In this document: positions 40,567 through 46,890 of the stretch, in pieces
Layout of the letters: every line of letters starts with the position of its first letter
How positions within the stretch are numbered: position 1 is the first letter of the stretch
Assembly (NCBI GenBank): GCA_027315165.1
Contig: DAHUYN010000004.1
Location: forward strand, 79,517-143,516
Length of the DNA stretch: 64,000 bases
Source: Thermoplasmata archaeon
GTDB lineage: Archaea > Thermoplasmatota > Thermoplasmata > Lutacidiplasmatales > UBA184
Direction: 5' to 3'
Position numbers and translations under genes: made by a program
The notes under the pieces: generated by a model
The model's input: the letters and a program-made list of their open reading frames with translations, nothing else
Databases searched by the model: none
What the model was told of the DNA's origin: nothing

Positions 40567-41484
40567 TCACGAACCGGGCGGCGGCCCCGAGGCCGTCGGC
40601 TCGATCGGCCGCTCGAGCCGACGGCGCTCGGTCTTGGCGAGAAGCGCGGGGAGGCGGCGGATCACGACGGCGGCGAGCAGCACGACGGCCGAGATGCCGA
40701 CGGCCACGAAGACGAGGCCCTCGAACGGGCTCAGGTAGCCCTCGGTGACGAGGACCGAGTAGAGCCCGTAGGTGACGATGACCCCGTCGACGGCCATCAC
40801 GAGCCTCGAGAAGAAGTCCTTGGAGAACCGCTGGAGGAGGACCGTCCCGAGGGGCACGCCGACGAGCACCGGGAGCAGGAGCGACGGGACGAGGACCGCC
40901 GACGAGGTCGTGTAGAGGCCCAGCATCGCGTAGGCGGCGGCCGTCAGGCTCGCCTCGGCGACGCGGATCTGCGCCATCGCACAGCGGAACTCCTCCCGGC
41001 TCAGCCCCTGGTTGCGCCAGAAGAGGGCGAGCGGCGGACCCGAGATCGTCGTGAGCGCGTACAGGAAGCCGACGATCGCGCCGAGGACCGGACCCGCCCG
41101 GTGCTCGCGGCGGATCTCGCGGCGGTAGCCGAGCAGCTGGAGGACCGTGAGCGGGAGGATGAGCGCGTAGACGAAGATCCGGACGCCGGTCGCCGACAGG
41201 AGGACGAGTCCCGCGCTGCCGAGGACGACGCCGGGGAGGAGACCGACGAGGACCGGCCGCGCCCTCGCCTTCGTCGTCGCGAGGTACCTCCTCTCGCGGT
41301 AGAGGAGCGTCACGTTGACGACGAGTTCGACGGCGACGAGGGCGGGGTTGAGGACCCGGTTCGTCGTCCAGAACAGCGCGATCGGCGTGACGATCGAGGA
41401 GAAGCCGTAGCCGACGGCGCCGTTGACGACGGCGGCGAACAGGGCCACGAGCGCCAGCTCGAGGGTCGTTGGAGAGAGGTCCAT
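40567..41484 (-). CDS. TauE/SafE (TSUP) family sulfur-compound transporter
   Basis: This 305-residue protein has eight or nine membrane helices in two repeats. Each begins with a family-like Gly/Pro pattern (NGAVGYGFSSIVTPIALFW; then GAIVGFLYALTTISGPPLALFW). TSUP proteins export or import sulfite, thiosulfate, sulfoacetate or organosulfur compounds. Its place between sufB and sufS suggests a role in sulfur supply or in removing excess sulfite, which is inference. TATA-like GTTCATATCC (minus strand, near 41522) gives a leader of about 10 nt. Confidence 0.82.
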   Translation of the reverse strand: MDLSPTTLELALVALFAAVVNGAVGYGFSSIVTPIALFWTTNRVLNPALVAVELVVNVTLLYRERRYLATTKARARPVLVGLLPGVVLGSAGLVLLSATGVRIFVYALILPLTVLQLLGYRREIRREHRAGPVLGAIVGFLYALTTISGPPLALFWRNQGLSREEFRCAMAQIRVAEASLTAAAYAMLGLYTTSSAVLVPSLLLPVLVGVPLGTVLLQRFSKDFFSRLVMAVDGVIVTYGLYSVLVTEGYLSPFEGLVFVAVGISAVVLLAAVVIRRLPALLAKTERRRLERPIEPTASGPPPGS

Positions 41485-41593: not shown

Positions 41594-42823
41594 CTACCGG
41601 GCGAAGACCTTCTCGACCTTCTCGAGCGCGTCGAAGAGCCGGACGAGGTCGGTCTGGTCGTTGTAGAGGTACGGGCTCGCCCGAGAGAGCGCCGGGACCC
41701 CGAGCCGGTCCATCAGGGGCTGCGCGCAGTGATGCCCGCTCCGCGTCGCGACGCCTTCGGCATCGAGGAGGCTCGCGACGTCGTGGGGGTGCACGCCCTC
41801 GAGCGAGAACGACAGCACCGCCTCGCGCGCCTCGGGATCCGTCGGACCGTAGATGCGGAGCCGGCCCTCGAACCGTCGCGCGGCCTCGGCGAGGGCGAAC
41901 CGCTGGAGCGCCGCCTCGTGCGAGCGGAGCTCGTCCCAGCCGATCCCCTCGAGGTAATCGAGGGCCCTCGCGAGCGCGTAGGCCCCGCCGGCGTTCGGCG
42001 TGCCGGCCTCGAACCTCGCGGGAGGCTCACGGAAGAGGACGCGGTCCTTGTGGACCTCGCGGATCATCTCGCCGCCCCCCATGTAGGGGCTCATCTTCTT
42101 GAGGAGCTCCGAGCGCCCCCAGAGCACGCCGATCCCCATCGGCCCGAGCGCCTTGTGGCCGGAGAAGGTGAGCAGGTCGGCGCCGAGCTCGCGAACGTCG
42201 ACCTTGCGGTGGGGGACCGACTGCGCGGCGTCGACGATGACGATCGCGCCCGCCGCGTGCGCCCGCTCCGCGACCTCGCGGACCGGGTTCACGGTCCCGA
42301 GGACGTTCGAGACGTGGGTGAGCGTCACGACCTTCGCGCCCGCCCTCAGCGCCTCGTCGTACTGTTCCGTCCGAAGACGCCCCTCGTCATCGATGTCGAT
42401 GAAGTCGAGCTCGAGGCCGAGCCGACCGCGCAGCATCTGCCAGGGAACGATGTTCGAGTGGTGCTCCATCACCGTCGTCACGACACGGTCCCCGCGCGAG
42501 AGGCCGTCGCGGGCGAGGCTCTCGGCAGCGAGGTTGAGACCCTCCGTCGCGCCGCGAAGGAAGACGATCTCCGAGGGGTCGGGGGCGTTGAGGAAGCGGG
42601 CCACGCGCTCGCGCGCCTTCTCGTAGGCCTCCGTCGCCTCTTCGCTCAGCGCGTAGACGCCGCGGTGGACGTTCGCGTTGAGCCGCTCGTAGAACTCGGC
42701 CTCCGCGTCGATGACGACGCGGGGCTTCTGCGACGTGGCGGCGGAGTCGAGATAGACGAACGGGCGGCCGTGGAAGGTTCGCGAGAGGATCGGAAAGTCC
42801 TTCCGGATCCTCCCTACGTCCAT
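41594..42823 (-). CDS. sufS: Cysteine desulfurase SufS
   Basis: This 409-residue PLP enzyme takes sulfur from cysteine as a persulfide. The PLP lysine is in FSGHKALGP, preceded by the Asp of IVDAAQSVPH. The catalytic cysteine is in TRSGHHCAQPLM, the group II (SufS) loop. MEHHSNIVPWQ is the conserved PLP-stacking region. The length is normal. It starts 33 nt after sufC ends, so sufC and sufS are one unit. It is the probable sulfur source for both the SufBCD/SufU pathway and, by inference, the rhodanese-E1-MoaD fusion encoded upstream of sufC on the other strand. Confidence 0.95.
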   Translation of the reverse strand: MDVGRIRKDFPILSRTFHGRPFVYLDSAATSQKPRVVIDAEAEFYERLNANVHRGVYALSEEATEAYEKARERVARFLNAPDPSEIVFLRGATEGLNLAAESLARDGLSRGDRVVTTVMEHHSNIVPWQMLRGRLGLELDFIDIDDEGRLRTEQYDEALRAGAKVVTLTHVSNVLGTVNPVREVAERAHAAGAIVIVDAAQSVPHRKVDVRELGADLLTFSGHKALGPMGIGVLWGRSELLKKMSPYMGGGEMIREVHKDRVLFREPPARFEAGTPNAGGAYALARALDYLEGIGWDELRSHEAALQRFALAEAARRFEGRLRIYGPTDPEAREAVLSFSLEGVHPHDVASLLDAEGVATRSGHHCAQPLMDRLGVPALSRASPYLYNDQTDLVRLFDALEKVEKVFAR

Positions 42824-42856: not shown

Positions 42857-43630
42857 CTAGGCGCCGGGGGCCTCGGTGACGCCAACCTTCACCCAGTCGT
42901 AACCTTTTGCCTCGAGCTCCTCGGCGAGCTCACGGCCACCGGACATCGCGACGACGCCGTCGACCATGACGTGGACCCGGTCCGCCTGCAGGTAGCGCAG
43001 GATGCGCTGGTAGTGCGTGATCACGAGGATCCCCGCGTCCGGCCGGTGCAGCTTCGCCACCGTCTCTCCGACCGCGCGCACGGCGTCGATGTCGAGCCCC
43101 GAGTCCGGCTCGTCCAGGATCGAGAACGTCGGGTGGATCGTCGCCATCTGGAGGACCTCGACGCGCTTCTTCTCGCCGCCGGAGAACCCCTCGTTGAGCG
43201 AGCGCTTGAGGAGCGACTCGTCCATCCCGAGGTAGTCCAGATGGGTCTTGAGGTCGCGACCGAACCCCTCGGCGTCGGCGTCCTCGGGGGTGTGCCGCTG
43301 CATGTGGGCCGTCCACAGGAACTTCGAGAGCGAGAGCCCCGAGACCTCCTGCGGGTACTGGAAGCCCAGGAACAGTCCGGCGCGGGAGCGCTGGTCGACC
43401 GGGAGCTGGAGCAGGTCCTTGCCGTCGAGGAGCGCCTCCCCCTTCGTCACCTTGTACTTGGGGTGCCCCATCAGCGAGTAGGCGAGCGTGCTCTTCCCGG
43501 ACCCGTTGGGTCCCATCAACACGGTGATCTCGCCCGCGCGGAGGGTCAGATTGACCCCGCGCAGGATCTCCTTGCCGCCGACCTCGACGTGGAGGTCCTT
43601 GACAACGAGCGTGTGCGGCGCCGCGGCCAT
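42857..43630 (-). CDS. sufC: SufC ATPase
   Basis: This 257-residue ABC-type ATPase of the SufBCD complex has Walker A GPNGSGKST near residue 40, the SufC-typical signature GFSGGEKKRVEVLQM, and Walker B FSILDEPDSGLDIDA. TATA box GCTTAAATAAC (minus strand, 43661-43671) is centred about 36 nt upstream. It is divergent from sufR and heads a unit with sufS. SufC drives conformational change of SufB and SufD during cluster building. Confidence 0.95.
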   Translation of the reverse strand: MAAAPHTLVVKDLHVEVGGKEILRGVNLTLRAGEITVLMGPNGSGKSTLAYSLMGHPKYKVTKGEALLDGKDLLQLPVDQRSRAGLFLGFQYPQEVSGLSLSKFLWTAHMQRHTPEDADAEGFGRDLKTHLDYLGMDESLLKRSLNEGFSGGEKKRVEVLQMATIHPTFSILDEPDSGLDIDAVRAVGETVAKLHRPDAGILVITHYQRILRYLQADRVHVMVDGVVAMSGGRELAEELEAKGYDWVKVGVTEAPGA

Positions 43631-43660
43631 CGGTTCTCCTACCGCGTCGTACCGAAGGCG

Positions 43661-43690
43661 TTATTTAAGCATGGCGCGGTGAGTAAACTC
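43661..43690. promoter_or_regulatory. Divergent sufC/sufR promoter with candidate SufR box
   Basis: TTATTTAA at 43661-43668 serves as TATA box in both directions. GTGAGTAAACTC at 43679-43690 contains the inverted repeat GAGT-AA-ACTC and lies directly before the predicted sufR transcription start near 43691. An almost identical 12-mer is at the sufD promoter in the same relative place. Confidence 0.6.
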
Positions 43691-43728: not shown

Positions 43729-44382
43729 GTGAGCGCGTCGGGCCAGGAAGTGCGCCCCGGCGAGGGGACCCGGGGCCGTATCCTCGAGGAGCTCGCCGTC
43801 GCGCCGCGCACGGCCCGCGACCTCTCCAAGAAGCTCGGGATCCAGGAGAGCGCGGCTCGCGGCCACCTCGACCGCTTGGAGGAGCGCGGACTCGTCGTCC
43901 CGACGTTCCGTCGCGAGGGGGTCGGACGGCCCCGCAAGCGCTACCTTCTCACCCCGGAGGCGCTCGAGCTGTTCCCGAAGCGCTACGAGCTGCTGCTCGA
44001 CGCCGTGATGGAGGAGATCCTGGCCGAGCACGGCGAGGCCTCCGCCTCGAAGCTGTTCGCCGATGCGGCCAAGCGGATGGCGCAGGAGATCGCGGCCAAG
44101 GTCCCCCACGGTCCGTCGCGGTCGGAGCGGGCCCGAGCCCTCGTCAAGGCGTTGAACGACCTCGGCTTCCGCTGCACCGTCGAGCAGTCGGAGTCGGGGG
44201 CCCTGAAGATCGTCCGCTCCAACTGCGTCTTCCGGCACAGCGCGCTTCACCACGCCTACCTCGTCTGCGACGTCTTCGACAAGCACCTGACCGAAGGGCT
44301 CCTCGGACAGGTCGGCGTCGACCTCCAGGACTCGATCAGCCGTGGCGGGATGCGGTGCACCCACCTGATCCAGCTTCGGTGA
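43729..44382 (+). CDS. sufR: SufR-like Fe-S responsive transcription regulator
   Basis: This 217-residue protein has an N-terminal winged helix (RILEELAVAPRTARDLSKKLGI, recognition helix ESAARGHLDRLEERGL, wing GVGRPRKRYLLT). The C-terminal domain holds four cysteines: C149, C166, C180 and C210. NCVFRHSALHHAYLVC gives a C-x13-C spacing as in bacterial SufR, where three cysteines bind a [4Fe-4S] or [2Fe-2S] cluster and the holo-protein represses suf genes. Location next to sufC and the shared promoter motif support that role. Start is GTG. The stop overlaps the JAMM gene by GTGA. This regulator also leads the operon of the ubiquitin-like sulfur-transfer genes. Confidence 0.88.
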   Translation: MSASGQEVRPGEGTRGRILEELAVAPRTARDLSKKLGIQESAARGHLDRLEERGLVVPTFRREGVGRPRKRYLLTPEALELFPKRYELLLDAVMEEILAEHGEASASKLFADAAKRMAQEIAAKVPHGPSRSERARALVKALNDLGFRCTVEQSESGALKIVRSNCVFRHSALHHAYLVCDVFDKHLTEGLLGQVGVDLQDSISRGGMRCTHLIQLR

Positions 44383-44864
44383 GCGCACCCCGGCCGCGGG
44401 CCGCGGGCGCGGCGACGGGGCCGGTGGCGGAGCTTCTCGTCCCGGCGTCGCTCGCGACGGCTCTCGTCGACGAGGCCCGTCGGGCGCTTCCCCGAGAGTC
44501 CTGCGGCGTCCTGCTGGGCCGGGGGCCCGACGAGAACGGGCGGCTCCGGCTCACCCGCACCCTCAACCTCCCGAACACGGCTCCGATGTCGGTATCGGGT
44601 CGCTTCACGGCCGCCCCGGAGCCCCTCCGATCGCTCCTCGAGAGCTCTCGGTCGGAGCTCGTCGGCTACTACCACAGCCACGTCACCGGAGCGCCGACGC
44701 CCTCGGGCGACGACCTCAAGGGAGGCTGGCCCGGCCTGGTCGCGGTCCTCGTCGGTCCGACGATCGCGCGGGCGCCGCGCCTCGAGGCGTTCCTGATCGA
44801 GCCGGCCGGCGCGAAGATGCTATGGCGCAGGCTTCGACTGCGGACGCTCGCGGAGGGTCGATGA
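44379..44864 (+). CDS. JAMM/MPN domain metalloprotease
   Basis: This 161-residue protein has a complete JAMM zinc site: Glu40 in PRESCGVLLG, then YYHSHVTGAPTPSGDD with His99, His101, Ser109 and Asp112 (pattern H-x-H-x7-S-x2-D). Archaeal JAMM enzymes remove ubiquitin-like SAMP proteins, and bacterial ones such as Mec release products from MoaD/ThiS-like carriers. It is coupled by GTGA to sufR upstream and by ATGA to the MoaD-E1-rhodanese gene downstream. The most economical reading is that it cuts after the Gly-Gly of that MoaD-like domain, either to mature the fusion or to recycle conjugates. Confidence 0.9.
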   Translation: MSAPRPRAAGAATGPVAELLVPASLATALVDEARRALPRESCGVLLGRGPDENGRLRLTRTLNLPNTAPMSVSGRFTAAPEPLRSLLESSRSELVGYYHSHVTGAPTPSGDDLKGGWPGLVAVLVGPTIARAPRLEAFLIEPAGAKMLWRRLRLRTLAEGR

Positions 44865-46312
44865 CCGGTGCGACCGAGCGGCCTCGAGTCCAGCTCGCGC
44901 TGCCTCGGTCGCTCGCCGACCCCGCTGGCGCCGCCGAGATCGAGGTCGACGCCCTGACCGTCGGGGAGGCGCTCGCCGAGCTCGCTCGGCTTCGGCCGGA
45001 GCTCGCGCCACGCCTCCTCGGTCGCGACGGCCGTCTGCTCTCCGCGGTCGCGGTCTACCTCCGGGGGCAGGATGTCCGGGAGCTCTCGGGCCTGGCGACG
45101 CCGCTCTCGAGCCGGGACCGGCTCGAGCTCGTGCCGGCGCTCTCGGGCGGGGACGGGCCGGCTCCAGAGCCCCGGGCCTTCCGGCCGGAGGAGCTCGCGC
45201 GATACGGTCGACACCTCGTCCTCCCCGAGGTCGGCCCCGAGGGGCAACGGCGGCTCGCCGCCTCTCGGGTCCTGCTCGTCGGGCTCGGGGGCCTCGGAGC
45301 CCCGGCCGCGCTCTACCTGGCCGCCGCGGGCGTCGGCGAGCTCGGGCTCGCCGACTTCGCCGACGTCCAGACCTCGAACCTGCAGCGGCAGGTCCTCTAC
45401 ACGACGGCCGACGTCGGACGACCGAAGGTCGAAGCGGCCGCCGACCGGCTCGCGGCGCTGAATCCGGGGGTCCGGCTCGTGCGGCATCCCGAGCGCCTCG
45501 ACCGGACGAACGCCCTCGAGGTCGTCCGTCGGTACGACGTCGTCCTCGACGGGAGCGACAACTTCCCCACCCGCTACCTCGTCAACGACGCCTGCGTCCT
45601 CGCGGGCGTGCCGGACGTCTTCGGCTCCGTCTACCGGTTCGAGGGGCAGGTGAGCGTCTTCGACGCGCGCCACGGCCCGTGTTATCGCTGCCTCTTTCCG
45701 GAGCCGCCGCCCCCCGACGCGGTGCCGTCGTGCGCGGACGGCGGCGTGCTCGGCGTCCTGCCGGGGCTCGTCGGTCTCCTCCAGGCGACCGAGACGCTCA
45801 AGCTCCTGCTCGGCGTCGGCCGGCCGCTGCGGGGCCGGCTCCTCCTCGTCGACGGTCTCGACCTCGGGTTCCGCGAGCTCGCGCTCACCAAGGCGGCGGA
45901 CTGCCCTGTCTGTTCGGCCGCCCCGACGATCACCGAGCTCATCGACTACGAGGCGTTCTGCGGCGTCGCGGTGGGGGACGACGACGCGGCTGCGGTCGGC
46001 GCCGTCGAGCTCCGCGGGCTTCTCGAGGCCGCGTCCCCGCCGCTCCTGCTCGACGTCCGCTCGCGGGAGGAGTACGACCTCGGGCACCTGCCGCGAGCCC
46101 GCTCCGTTCCTCTCGAGGCGCTCGCCGAGCATCTCGAGGAGCTCGGCCAGGCCGGGTCGGTCGTCACCTACTGCTCGGGCGGCACGCGATCGTCCCAAGC
46201 GTCTCGCCGGCTGCGCGACGTCGGGTTCCGGCGGGTCCGGCGGCTCAGCGGCGGCTTCGAGGGCTGGGTCGAGGCCGGCGGGCCGGTGACGACGGGGCCG
46301 GGCGCGGATTAG
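44861..46312 (+). CDS. MoaD-like / E1 (ThiF-MoeB) / rhodanese fusion protein
   Basis: This 483-residue protein joins three domains. Residues 8-97 are a beta-grasp MoaD/ThiS-like domain ending ELVPALSGG, so its Gly96-Gly97 sits inside the chain. Residues 105-360 are an E1 adenylyltransferase: RYGRHLVLPEVG, nucleotide loop GLGGLG at 141-146, SNLQRQVLY, DNFPTRYLVND, zinc pairs CYRC (274-277) and CPVC (348-351), and the Cys291 region CADGGVLGVLPG. Residues 380-475 are a rhodanese with active Cys438 in YCSGGTRS. E1-rhodanese fusions activate carriers for thiocarboxylate sulfur. Having the carrier on the same chain is unusual. The ATGA overlap with the JAMM gene sets the start. Confidence 0.9.
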   Translation: MTGATERPRVQLALPRSLADPAGAAEIEVDALTVGEALAELARLRPELAPRLLGRDGRLLSAVAVYLRGQDVRELSGLATPLSSRDRLELVPALSGGDGPAPEPRAFRPEELARYGRHLVLPEVGPEGQRRLAASRVLLVGLGGLGAPAALYLAAAGVGELGLADFADVQTSNLQRQVLYTTADVGRPKVEAAADRLAALNPGVRLVRHPERLDRTNALEVVRRYDVVLDGSDNFPTRYLVNDACVLAGVPDVFGSVYRFEGQVSVFDARHGPCYRCLFPEPPPPDAVPSCADGGVLGVLPGLVGLLQATETLKLLLGVGRPLRGRLLLVDGLDLGFRELALTKAADCPVCSAAPTITELIDYEAFCGVAVGDDDAAAVGAVELRGLLEAASPPLLLDVRSREEYDLGHLPRARSVPLEALAEHLEELGQAGSVVTYCSGGTRSSQASRRLRDVGFRRVRRLSGGFEGWVEAGGPVTTGPGAD

Positions 46313-46890
46313 CCGGCGTCGCGTCGCGAGACGGGCGGCGCCGGGCCCGGCAGCTCGACCCCCCAGGAGCGGGCGCGCCTCGAGAGCTCTCTCGCGAAGC
46401 CGGGCGGGTCCCTCGGGGAGACGAACAGCGGGACGCGGCCGACGGTCACGAGGAGGCCGCGCGAGTCCGTGTGGATCGCGTCGAACGGGCCGAGCACGGG
46501 GCTGAAGACGCGGCTTCGCCACCCCCACGTCCCGAACAGGCCGATCGGGCCGAGGTCGCGGAGGTTCGCGAACTCGATGTTGCGCACCTCCTCGAGCCGC
46601 ACCCGCCTCGAGCCGAACAGCCGGAGCGCCGACAGCGTCTCCGCGTCGAGGACGTAGCGCGTCGTGAGGTAGCGAGCGAGGTAGACGAGGAGGATCGCGG
46701 CGAGCAGGAGCGGGACGCCCGGGTAGGCATAGGCGGTCCCCGTGTTGAGGTAGACGAGCAGGCCCACGAGCACGAGGTAGAGGCCGATCACCGCGACGGA
46801 GCGCGGCCCGTAGACGACGTAGCGTCCCTGCTCATCGAGCGGCGGCGCGGACCTCGTCGGCCCGGCCGCCGTCTCCGCTGCGCCCGCCAC
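46309..46890 (-). CDS. Two-helix membrane protein with bacterial PH-like (bPH2) domain
   Basis: This 193-residue protein has two adjacent membrane helices at about residues 33-52 and 55-72 (VAVIGLYLVLVGLLVYL, PGVPLLLAAILLVYLARYL). A soluble beta-rich domain follows in which TRYVLDAETLSALRLFGSRRVRLEEVRNIE is the classic start of a bPH2 (YdbS-like) domain. A Pro/Arg-rich C-terminus ends the protein. The stop overlaps that of the convergent fusion gene by 4 nt. The domain probably faces the cytoplasm; function unknown. Confidence 0.7.
   Translation of the reverse strand: MAGAAETAAGPTRSAPPLDEQGRYVVYGPRSVAVIGLYLVLVGLLVYLNTGTAYAYPGVPLLLAAILLVYLARYLTTRYVLDAETLSALRLFGSRRVRLEEVRNIEFANLRDLGPIGLFGTWGWRSRVFSPVLGPFDAIHTDSRGLLVTVGRVPLFVSPRDPPGFARELSRRARSWGVELPGPAPPVSRRDAG

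Follow-up and report, generated by a model that had tools for sequence, protein, structure and literature searches.

A JAMM protease gene coupled to a MoaD-E1-rhodanese fusion in an archaeal SUF locus: a candidate maturase for a ubiquitin-like sulfur carrier

Introduction

Ubiquitin-like (Ubl) carriers, E1 enzymes, and JAMM proteases are separate proteins in Haloferax (SAMP, UbaA, and HvJAMM1), where HvJAMM1 is known mainly for deconjugation (PMC4443979). Operons 4a–4c, which contain ThiS/MoaD, JAB, and E1-rhodanese, have been known since 2006 (Iyer et al., PMC1779556). According to a 2024 fusion/fission survey, MoaD-MoeB-rhodanese fusions have been catalogued in archaea, unclassified Euryarchaeota included, and MoaD-MoaE fusions need cleavage (PMC11237513).

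Proteolytic exposure of a carrier terminus has been reported several times. The Deinococcus JAMM protein DR0402 cuts MoaD-MoaE (PMC8832034), and Mycobacterium tuberculosis MoaX needs cleavage after Gly82 (PMC4326299). The E1 of Caldiarchaeum subterraneum rejects pro-ubiquitin and accepts the form cut by Rpn11 or truncated by a stop codon (PMC5654768). CsJAMM cuts SAMP precursors (PMC6043591).

In this study, a locus on contig C44 of a 2.04-Mb Thermoplasmata-type archaeal MAG (94% complete) was analyzed within a window of 64,000 nucleotides. The locus has the E1, Ubl, and JAMM families of Haloferax, but there they are separate proteins. Its three activities lie in one operon, as in operons 4a–4c, in which the carrier is separate. 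The order of the three fused domains is the same as in the MoaD-MoeBR clusters of the archaeal survey; in the accessible part of that survey, E1 fusions are not tied to a JAMM gene or a suf cluster, and JAMM-less split relatives are not described (PMC11237513). Like MoaD-MoaE and MoaX, the protein is a linear fusion with an internal Gly-Gly, where a protease would expose the carrier terminus. The partner of the carrier is the acceptor enzyme MoaE in those cases, whereas it is the activating E1-rhodanese here. Deinococcus dr_0402 lies far from the fusion gene DR2607, whereas the JAMM gene in the window overlaps the fusion gene. Exposure of a precursor Gly-Gly by an archaeal JAMM-type protease, as proposed here, resembles C. 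subterraneum pro-ubiquitin/Rpn11 and CsJAMM; the C. subterraneum ubiquitin precursor has a nine-residue tail, whereas a whole E1 is attached to the window carrier.

A preliminary description of the window had presented a polyprotein matured by its own protease as new. This was overstated, since such fusions have been catalogued (PMC11237513), operons of this class were described in 2006 (PMC1779556), and JAMM cutting after Gly-Gly is known (PMC8832034, PMC5654768, PMC6043591). As far as the literature shows, the new elements are the coupling of a JAMM protease to a carrier-E1 fusion, their correlated loss, and the linkage to suf genes.

Results and Discussion

Gene organization and the SufR-like regulator

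The operon consists of three co-directional genes on the forward strand. The first (43729–44382, GTG start) encodes a SufR-like winged-helix regulator of 217 aa. The second (44379–44864, GTG start) encodes a JAMM/MPN+ metalloprotease (Prok-JAB) of 161 aa with intact E-HSH-S-D residues. The third (44861–46312, ATG start) encodes a ThiS/MoaD-E1 (ThiF/MoeB)-rhodanese fusion of 483 aa. The open reading frame calls agreed with the earlier claim of three overlapping genes: the regulator and JAMM genes overlap by GTGA, and the JAMM and fusion genes by ATGA.

To the left of the operon, sufC, sufS, a membrane protein gene, and sufB are read leftward, and a sufD-like gene faces them. SufC (42857–43630, reverse strand; TIGR01978 above cut-off) is divergent from the regulator with a gap of 98 bp. 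The cysteine desulfurase SufS (41594–42823, reverse strand; TIGR01979 above cut-off) is a possible persulfide donor. The gene between sufS and sufB (40567–41484, reverse strand) encodes a multi-pass membrane protein with no NCBIfam match, which we take to resemble a TauE/SafE-type permease. Next to the fusion gene lies a convergent gene (46309–46890, reverse strand) whose product weakly matches a bacterial PH domain (bPH); a bPH gene stands beside the E1 or fusion gene in almost every congener, including those that lack JAMM. The order SufS-SufC-SufR-JAMM-fusion-bPH recurs across the genus, which excludes a chance arrangement. In another family of the class (G047 and G058; loci L108 and L109), the fusion gene lies inside the suf cluster between SufC and SufS, and the JAMM gene lies at its far end.

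The regulator matched HTH_5 (Pfam) and, below the cut-off, SufR_cyano (1.4e-9). Its score against the cyanobacterial equivalog TIGR02702 was 38.0 bits with a cut-off of 178.8, and the name SufR-like was therefore kept. The features of a SufR were nevertheless present: a winged helix, three conserved cysteines, and divergent orientation from suf genes. The cysteines (C-x13-C-x29-C) were invariant in 25 relatives, in a pattern comparable to C203, C216, and C244 of Rv1460 (PMC6034842). In the sufC-sufR gap, a block TTATTTAAGCATGGCGCGGTG..TAAA (43660–43690) is conserved in several congeners; it is possibly a TATA box with a regulator site. From synteny, control of the operon by Fe-S status is plausible, and SufS can reasonably be proposed as the persulfide supplier.

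Domain structure of the fusion protein

The preliminary description placed a carrier, an E1, and a rhodanese in one 483-residue chain with Gly96-Gly97 inside it, and Pfam searches and alignment bore this out. Pfam domains were found at residues 24–97 (ThiS, 3.8e-8, above cut-off), 115–350 (ThiF, 3.5e-79), and 383–471 (rhodanese, 2.6e-18). The ThiS region (44930–45151, forward strand like the parts that follow) is a beta-grasp carrier domain of the MoaD/ThiS/SAMP type, ending in Gly-Gly, though this Gly-Gly is internal to the chain. Its codons lie at 45146–45151, and JAMM cleavage is predicted after Gly97. In the alignment, a variable linker follows (45152–45184). The E1 adenylation domain (ThiF, 45203–45910) has GxGGxG, invariant R/K/D, and two CxxC zinc sites, and has the fold of MoeB/ThiF/Uba4. 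The rhodanese domain (46007–46273) has the active-site Cys438 (CSGGTR). The E1 and rhodanese are of the MoeB/MoeZ/UbaA type: NF006444 was above its cut-off, and all key residues were invariant.

The alignment comprised 33 fused proteins, drawn from this genus and other archaea as well as from Gemmatimonadota, Chloroflexota, Verrucomicrobia, and Elusimicrobia. Pro92, Gly96, and Gly97 were invariant in all of them, and the consistent lack of Gly-Gly that had been feared in homologues was not seen. The linker from Gly97 to the first E1 arginine was 11–33 residues long in relatives, with variable length and sequence. At P1′, directly after Gly97, the 33 fusions had Ser or Ala in most cases and Pro in none. 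This pattern of conservation indicates that selection acts on the buried Gly-Gly and is absent from the linker. The AlphaFold model of the fusion had a mean pLDDT of 89, and residues 96–104 were below 50. The invariant Gly-Gly, the freely varying linker, and the low pLDDT look like an interdomain protease site. An internal translation start yielding free E1 was rejected, as the window sequence has no in-frame ATG, GTG, or TTG between Gly97 and the E1.

Alternatively, the N-terminal domain might never serve as a carrier in vivo and instead stay attached to the E1 for docking or regulation, with the Gly-Gly as a relic. Free carriers occur in the same genome, and N-terminal Ubl-ThiF fusions with a second solo ThiS are on record (PMC1779556), both of which would fit such a role. 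However, the Gly-Gly is invariant in the 33 fusions and also kept in rhodanese-less Chloroflexota fusions, with freely variable residues after it in each case, and the free carrier of split relatives (see below) still ends exactly at Gly-Gly. A docking domain is thus rather improbable.

JAMM protease

The protease matched Pfam Prok-JAB (3.7e-16). It has the zinc site of JAMM/MPN+ proteins in an MPN fold, that is, a glutamate plus H-x-H-x7-S-x2-D, here H-S-H-x7-S-x2-D. E40, H99, H101, S109, and D112 were invariant across 29 JAMM sequences, and the intact site reported at the outset was thereby upheld.

The usual Pro after HSH is missing in the window JAMM, which is much more divergent than the JAMM proteins of its congeners. 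Together with the long E1 branch (0.94), this sequence divergence suggests fast or relaxed evolution. A second, divergent JAMM paralogue (L163, 2023–2544, G000:C11) lies beside NAD kinase-like and inositol-phosphatase-like genes. A similar low-scoring match is found in many congeners, and it stays in G018, which is without the operon JAMM.

The best NCBIfam match was the desampylase NF041370 (2.3e-13; 50.2 bits, below the cut-off of 130), and JAMM1-SAMP2 was among the closest folds. Both favor another function, in which the JAMM protein acts after charging, as a desampylase or Mec-like hydrolase of conjugates or the aminoacyl adduct, and cutting of the fusion falls to another protease or is merely incidental. 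JAMM genes beside already Gly-Gly-ended carriers in other phyla point the same way.

Distribution in the genus

The same domain order with a neighboring JAMM gene was sought in the window's genome and 36 congeners, which were searched for the fusion, Prok-JAB, and ThiS-type carriers, and the loci were read. Congeners with broken contigs, or in which neither gene was found, were left out of the counts. The operon-type JAMM was present in 24/24 genomes with the fusion, the window's included. Six genomes (G018, G024, G028, G004, G030, and G036) had an unfused E1-rhodanese, and a genome-wide Prok-JAB search found the operon-type JAMM in 0/6 of them. The presence of JAMM thus followed that of the fusion within the genus (Fisher p = 1.7e-6, raw and with kinship ignored).

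With fused relatives as the root, the E1-rhodanese tree called for three independent losses of the fusion, and JAMM was gone in 3/3 of these losses. A sign test on the three independent loss pairs gave p = 0.25; with three loss events only, this test is unable to reach significance. G004, G030, and G036 kept the E1 and had no operon carrier. Among the three losses, only the clade of G018, G024, and G028 (the split clade) keeps the carrier. Only this clade therefore separates maturation from deconjugation.

Gaps in the MAGs are an unlikely cause of the missing JAMM genes. G018, G024, G028, and G030 read through SufC-SufR-E1 without JAMM. The end of SufR abuts the E1 at a contig edge in G036, and the E1 is relocated in G004. 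The G018 assembly has five contigs and a completeness of 94%, and the sole JAMM left in it is the low-scoring paralogue.

The split clade encodes its carrier in a gene of its own, immediately ahead of the E1-rhodanese gene. The locus reads SufC-SufR-carrier-E1-rhodanese-bPH and matches that of fused relatives except for the missing JAMM. The carrier stop codon directly follows Gly-Gly in 3/3 genomes, and the E1 starts at most one codon past it in the same frame. This clade and the window's E1 are sisters in the tree (support 97/80), although the branch of the latter is long. A sequencing error was rejected as the cause of the split, since the stop directly follows Gly-Gly in all three genomes, the surrounding codons differ, and each E1 has a start of its own. 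The stop codon would achieve by translation what the JAMM cut would otherwise do. For C. subterraneum pro-ubiquitin, placing a stop codon behind Gly-Gly took the place of the protease in vitro; the split clade has the same substitution naturally.

These genomes bear on the desampylase or Mec-like function introduced above. With carrier, E1, and rhodanese, the split clade could still conjugate, yet the operon JAMM was lost; JAMM was kept in every genome of the genus with an internal Gly-Gly. Because the split clade keeps carrier, E1, and rhodanese without JAMM, deconjugation is an insufficient reason for JAMM retention in the genus. Action only after charging is accordingly regarded as unlikely for this protease.

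The JAMM and fusion genes might also co-vary as one suf-linked cassette that is gained and lost together, with no enzyme-substrate relation. They are overlapping and co-directional, and the independent events are few. However, the losses were selective. In the split clade, SufC, SufR, E1-rhodanese, and bPH stay and JAMM alone is gone; in G030 and G036, JAMM and carrier are gone with the rest in place, as far as the G036 contig reaches. JAMM on another contig in G009 is still kept with the fusion. Such a passive cassette is therefore very improbable. G009 (C75, L154) is the only congener seen with the fusion and JAMM on separate contigs, and both are kept.

Proposed maturation of the carrier

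The fusion is probably the polyprotein from which a sulfur-carrier system is processed, with the neighboring JAMM protein as its maturase. Observed here were the order of the domains, the conservation of the active sites, the co-occurrence of JAMM and fusion across whole genomes, their joint loss, and the lack of a second E1. The co-occurrence across the genus and the correlated loss would fit a pairing of the DR0402/CsJAMM type. The divergence of the window's own E1 and JAMM speaks against this reading, as do the small number of loss events and, outside the genus, JAMM genes in genomes whose carrier is already free. In the proposed scheme, JAMM would cut after Gly97 in the flexible linker. 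This would release a MoaD-type carrier that ends in Gly-Gly and leave a free E1-rhodanese resembling MoeBR/UbaA. The released carrier would be adenylated by the E1; the cysteine of the rhodanese, which SufS may charge, would turn the adenylated carrier into a thiocarboxylate, and this would hand its sulfur to an acceptor.

A more specific version is put forward tentatively, at somewhat less than even chances. It is a dedicated polyprotein relay within the SUF locus, in which a co-translated JAMM maturase frees the carrier, the fusion fixes a 1:1 ratio of carrier to E1, and supply is under the control of the Fe-S-sensing SufR.

Releasing a Ubl carrier from the fused E1 that activates it would be a JAMM function other than deconjugation, parallel to the processing of eukaryotic ubiquitin precursors. 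Relatives that have a stop after Gly-Gly, or no carrier, and also dropped the protease serve as a natural control. The locus would tie a Ubl sulfur relay to a SUF Fe-S locus in uncultured archaea.

Other carriers and the single E1

The operon had been described as a self-contained system, and this did not hold. No ThiF-family domain other than that of the fusion was found in the window's assembly, and two further free carriers ending in Gly-Gly, a MoaD beside moaE and a SAMP1-like protein, are encoded elsewhere in the genome. Besides MoaE, the genome codes for an NcsA-type tRNA thiolase. As the genome has one ThiF-family E1 and two other carriers, the E1 appears to serve several carriers, and it probably charges both free ones as well. 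The three congeners with an E1 and no operon carrier fit this role. Haloferax UbaA is likewise one E1 for several carriers. From the counts of E1 and carriers, the operon would act as the cell's E1 hub and contribute one additional carrier.

Other carriers were checked in the six unfused genomes, the window's genome, and four fused congeners. All were SAMP1-like or MoaD-like and ended exactly at Gly-Gly, so the fusion has the sole buried Gly-Gly seen. Apart from the fusion, none of the carriers checked would appear to require a maturase. In G028, a SAMP1-like carrier was the only other one found. One free SAMP1-like carrier (L001, G000:C17) lies immediately beside a repeat-protein gene, whose product presumably resembles a BNR/sialidase-type protein.

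Distribution beyond the genus

Outside the genus, JAMM was present in 28/30 fused genomes, in one of them as a contig-edge fragment only. The two fused MAGs without detectable JAMM (L011 and G100) are both possibly incomplete. JAMM was frequent in unfused genomes too, by Gly-Gly-ended and by short-tailed carriers. As JAMM is also common where the carrier is already free and ends in Gly-Gly, prokaryotic JAMM proteins have several roles. The dedicated-maturase reading is best supported for the present genus.

An adjacent JAMM was present and absent at 24:7 for C-terminally extended carriers and at 9:9 for Gly-Gly-ended carriers (p = 0.06, kinship uncorrected). A bacteria-wide rule that JAMM occurs only where Gly-Gly is not C-terminal was unsupported at this p value, with many Gly-Gly-ended carriers having JAMM. 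In Gemmatimonadota, three members with free Gly-Gly-ended carriers (L017, L047, and L083) had no JAMM match that passed the cut-off, and JAMM was next door in the fused L009 and L012.

In six Chloroflexota loci (L229, L231, L232, L235, L243, and L244), a carrier-E1 fusion without rhodanese is followed by a free carrier with a short tail past Gly-Gly. JAMM lies downstream in several of these loci.
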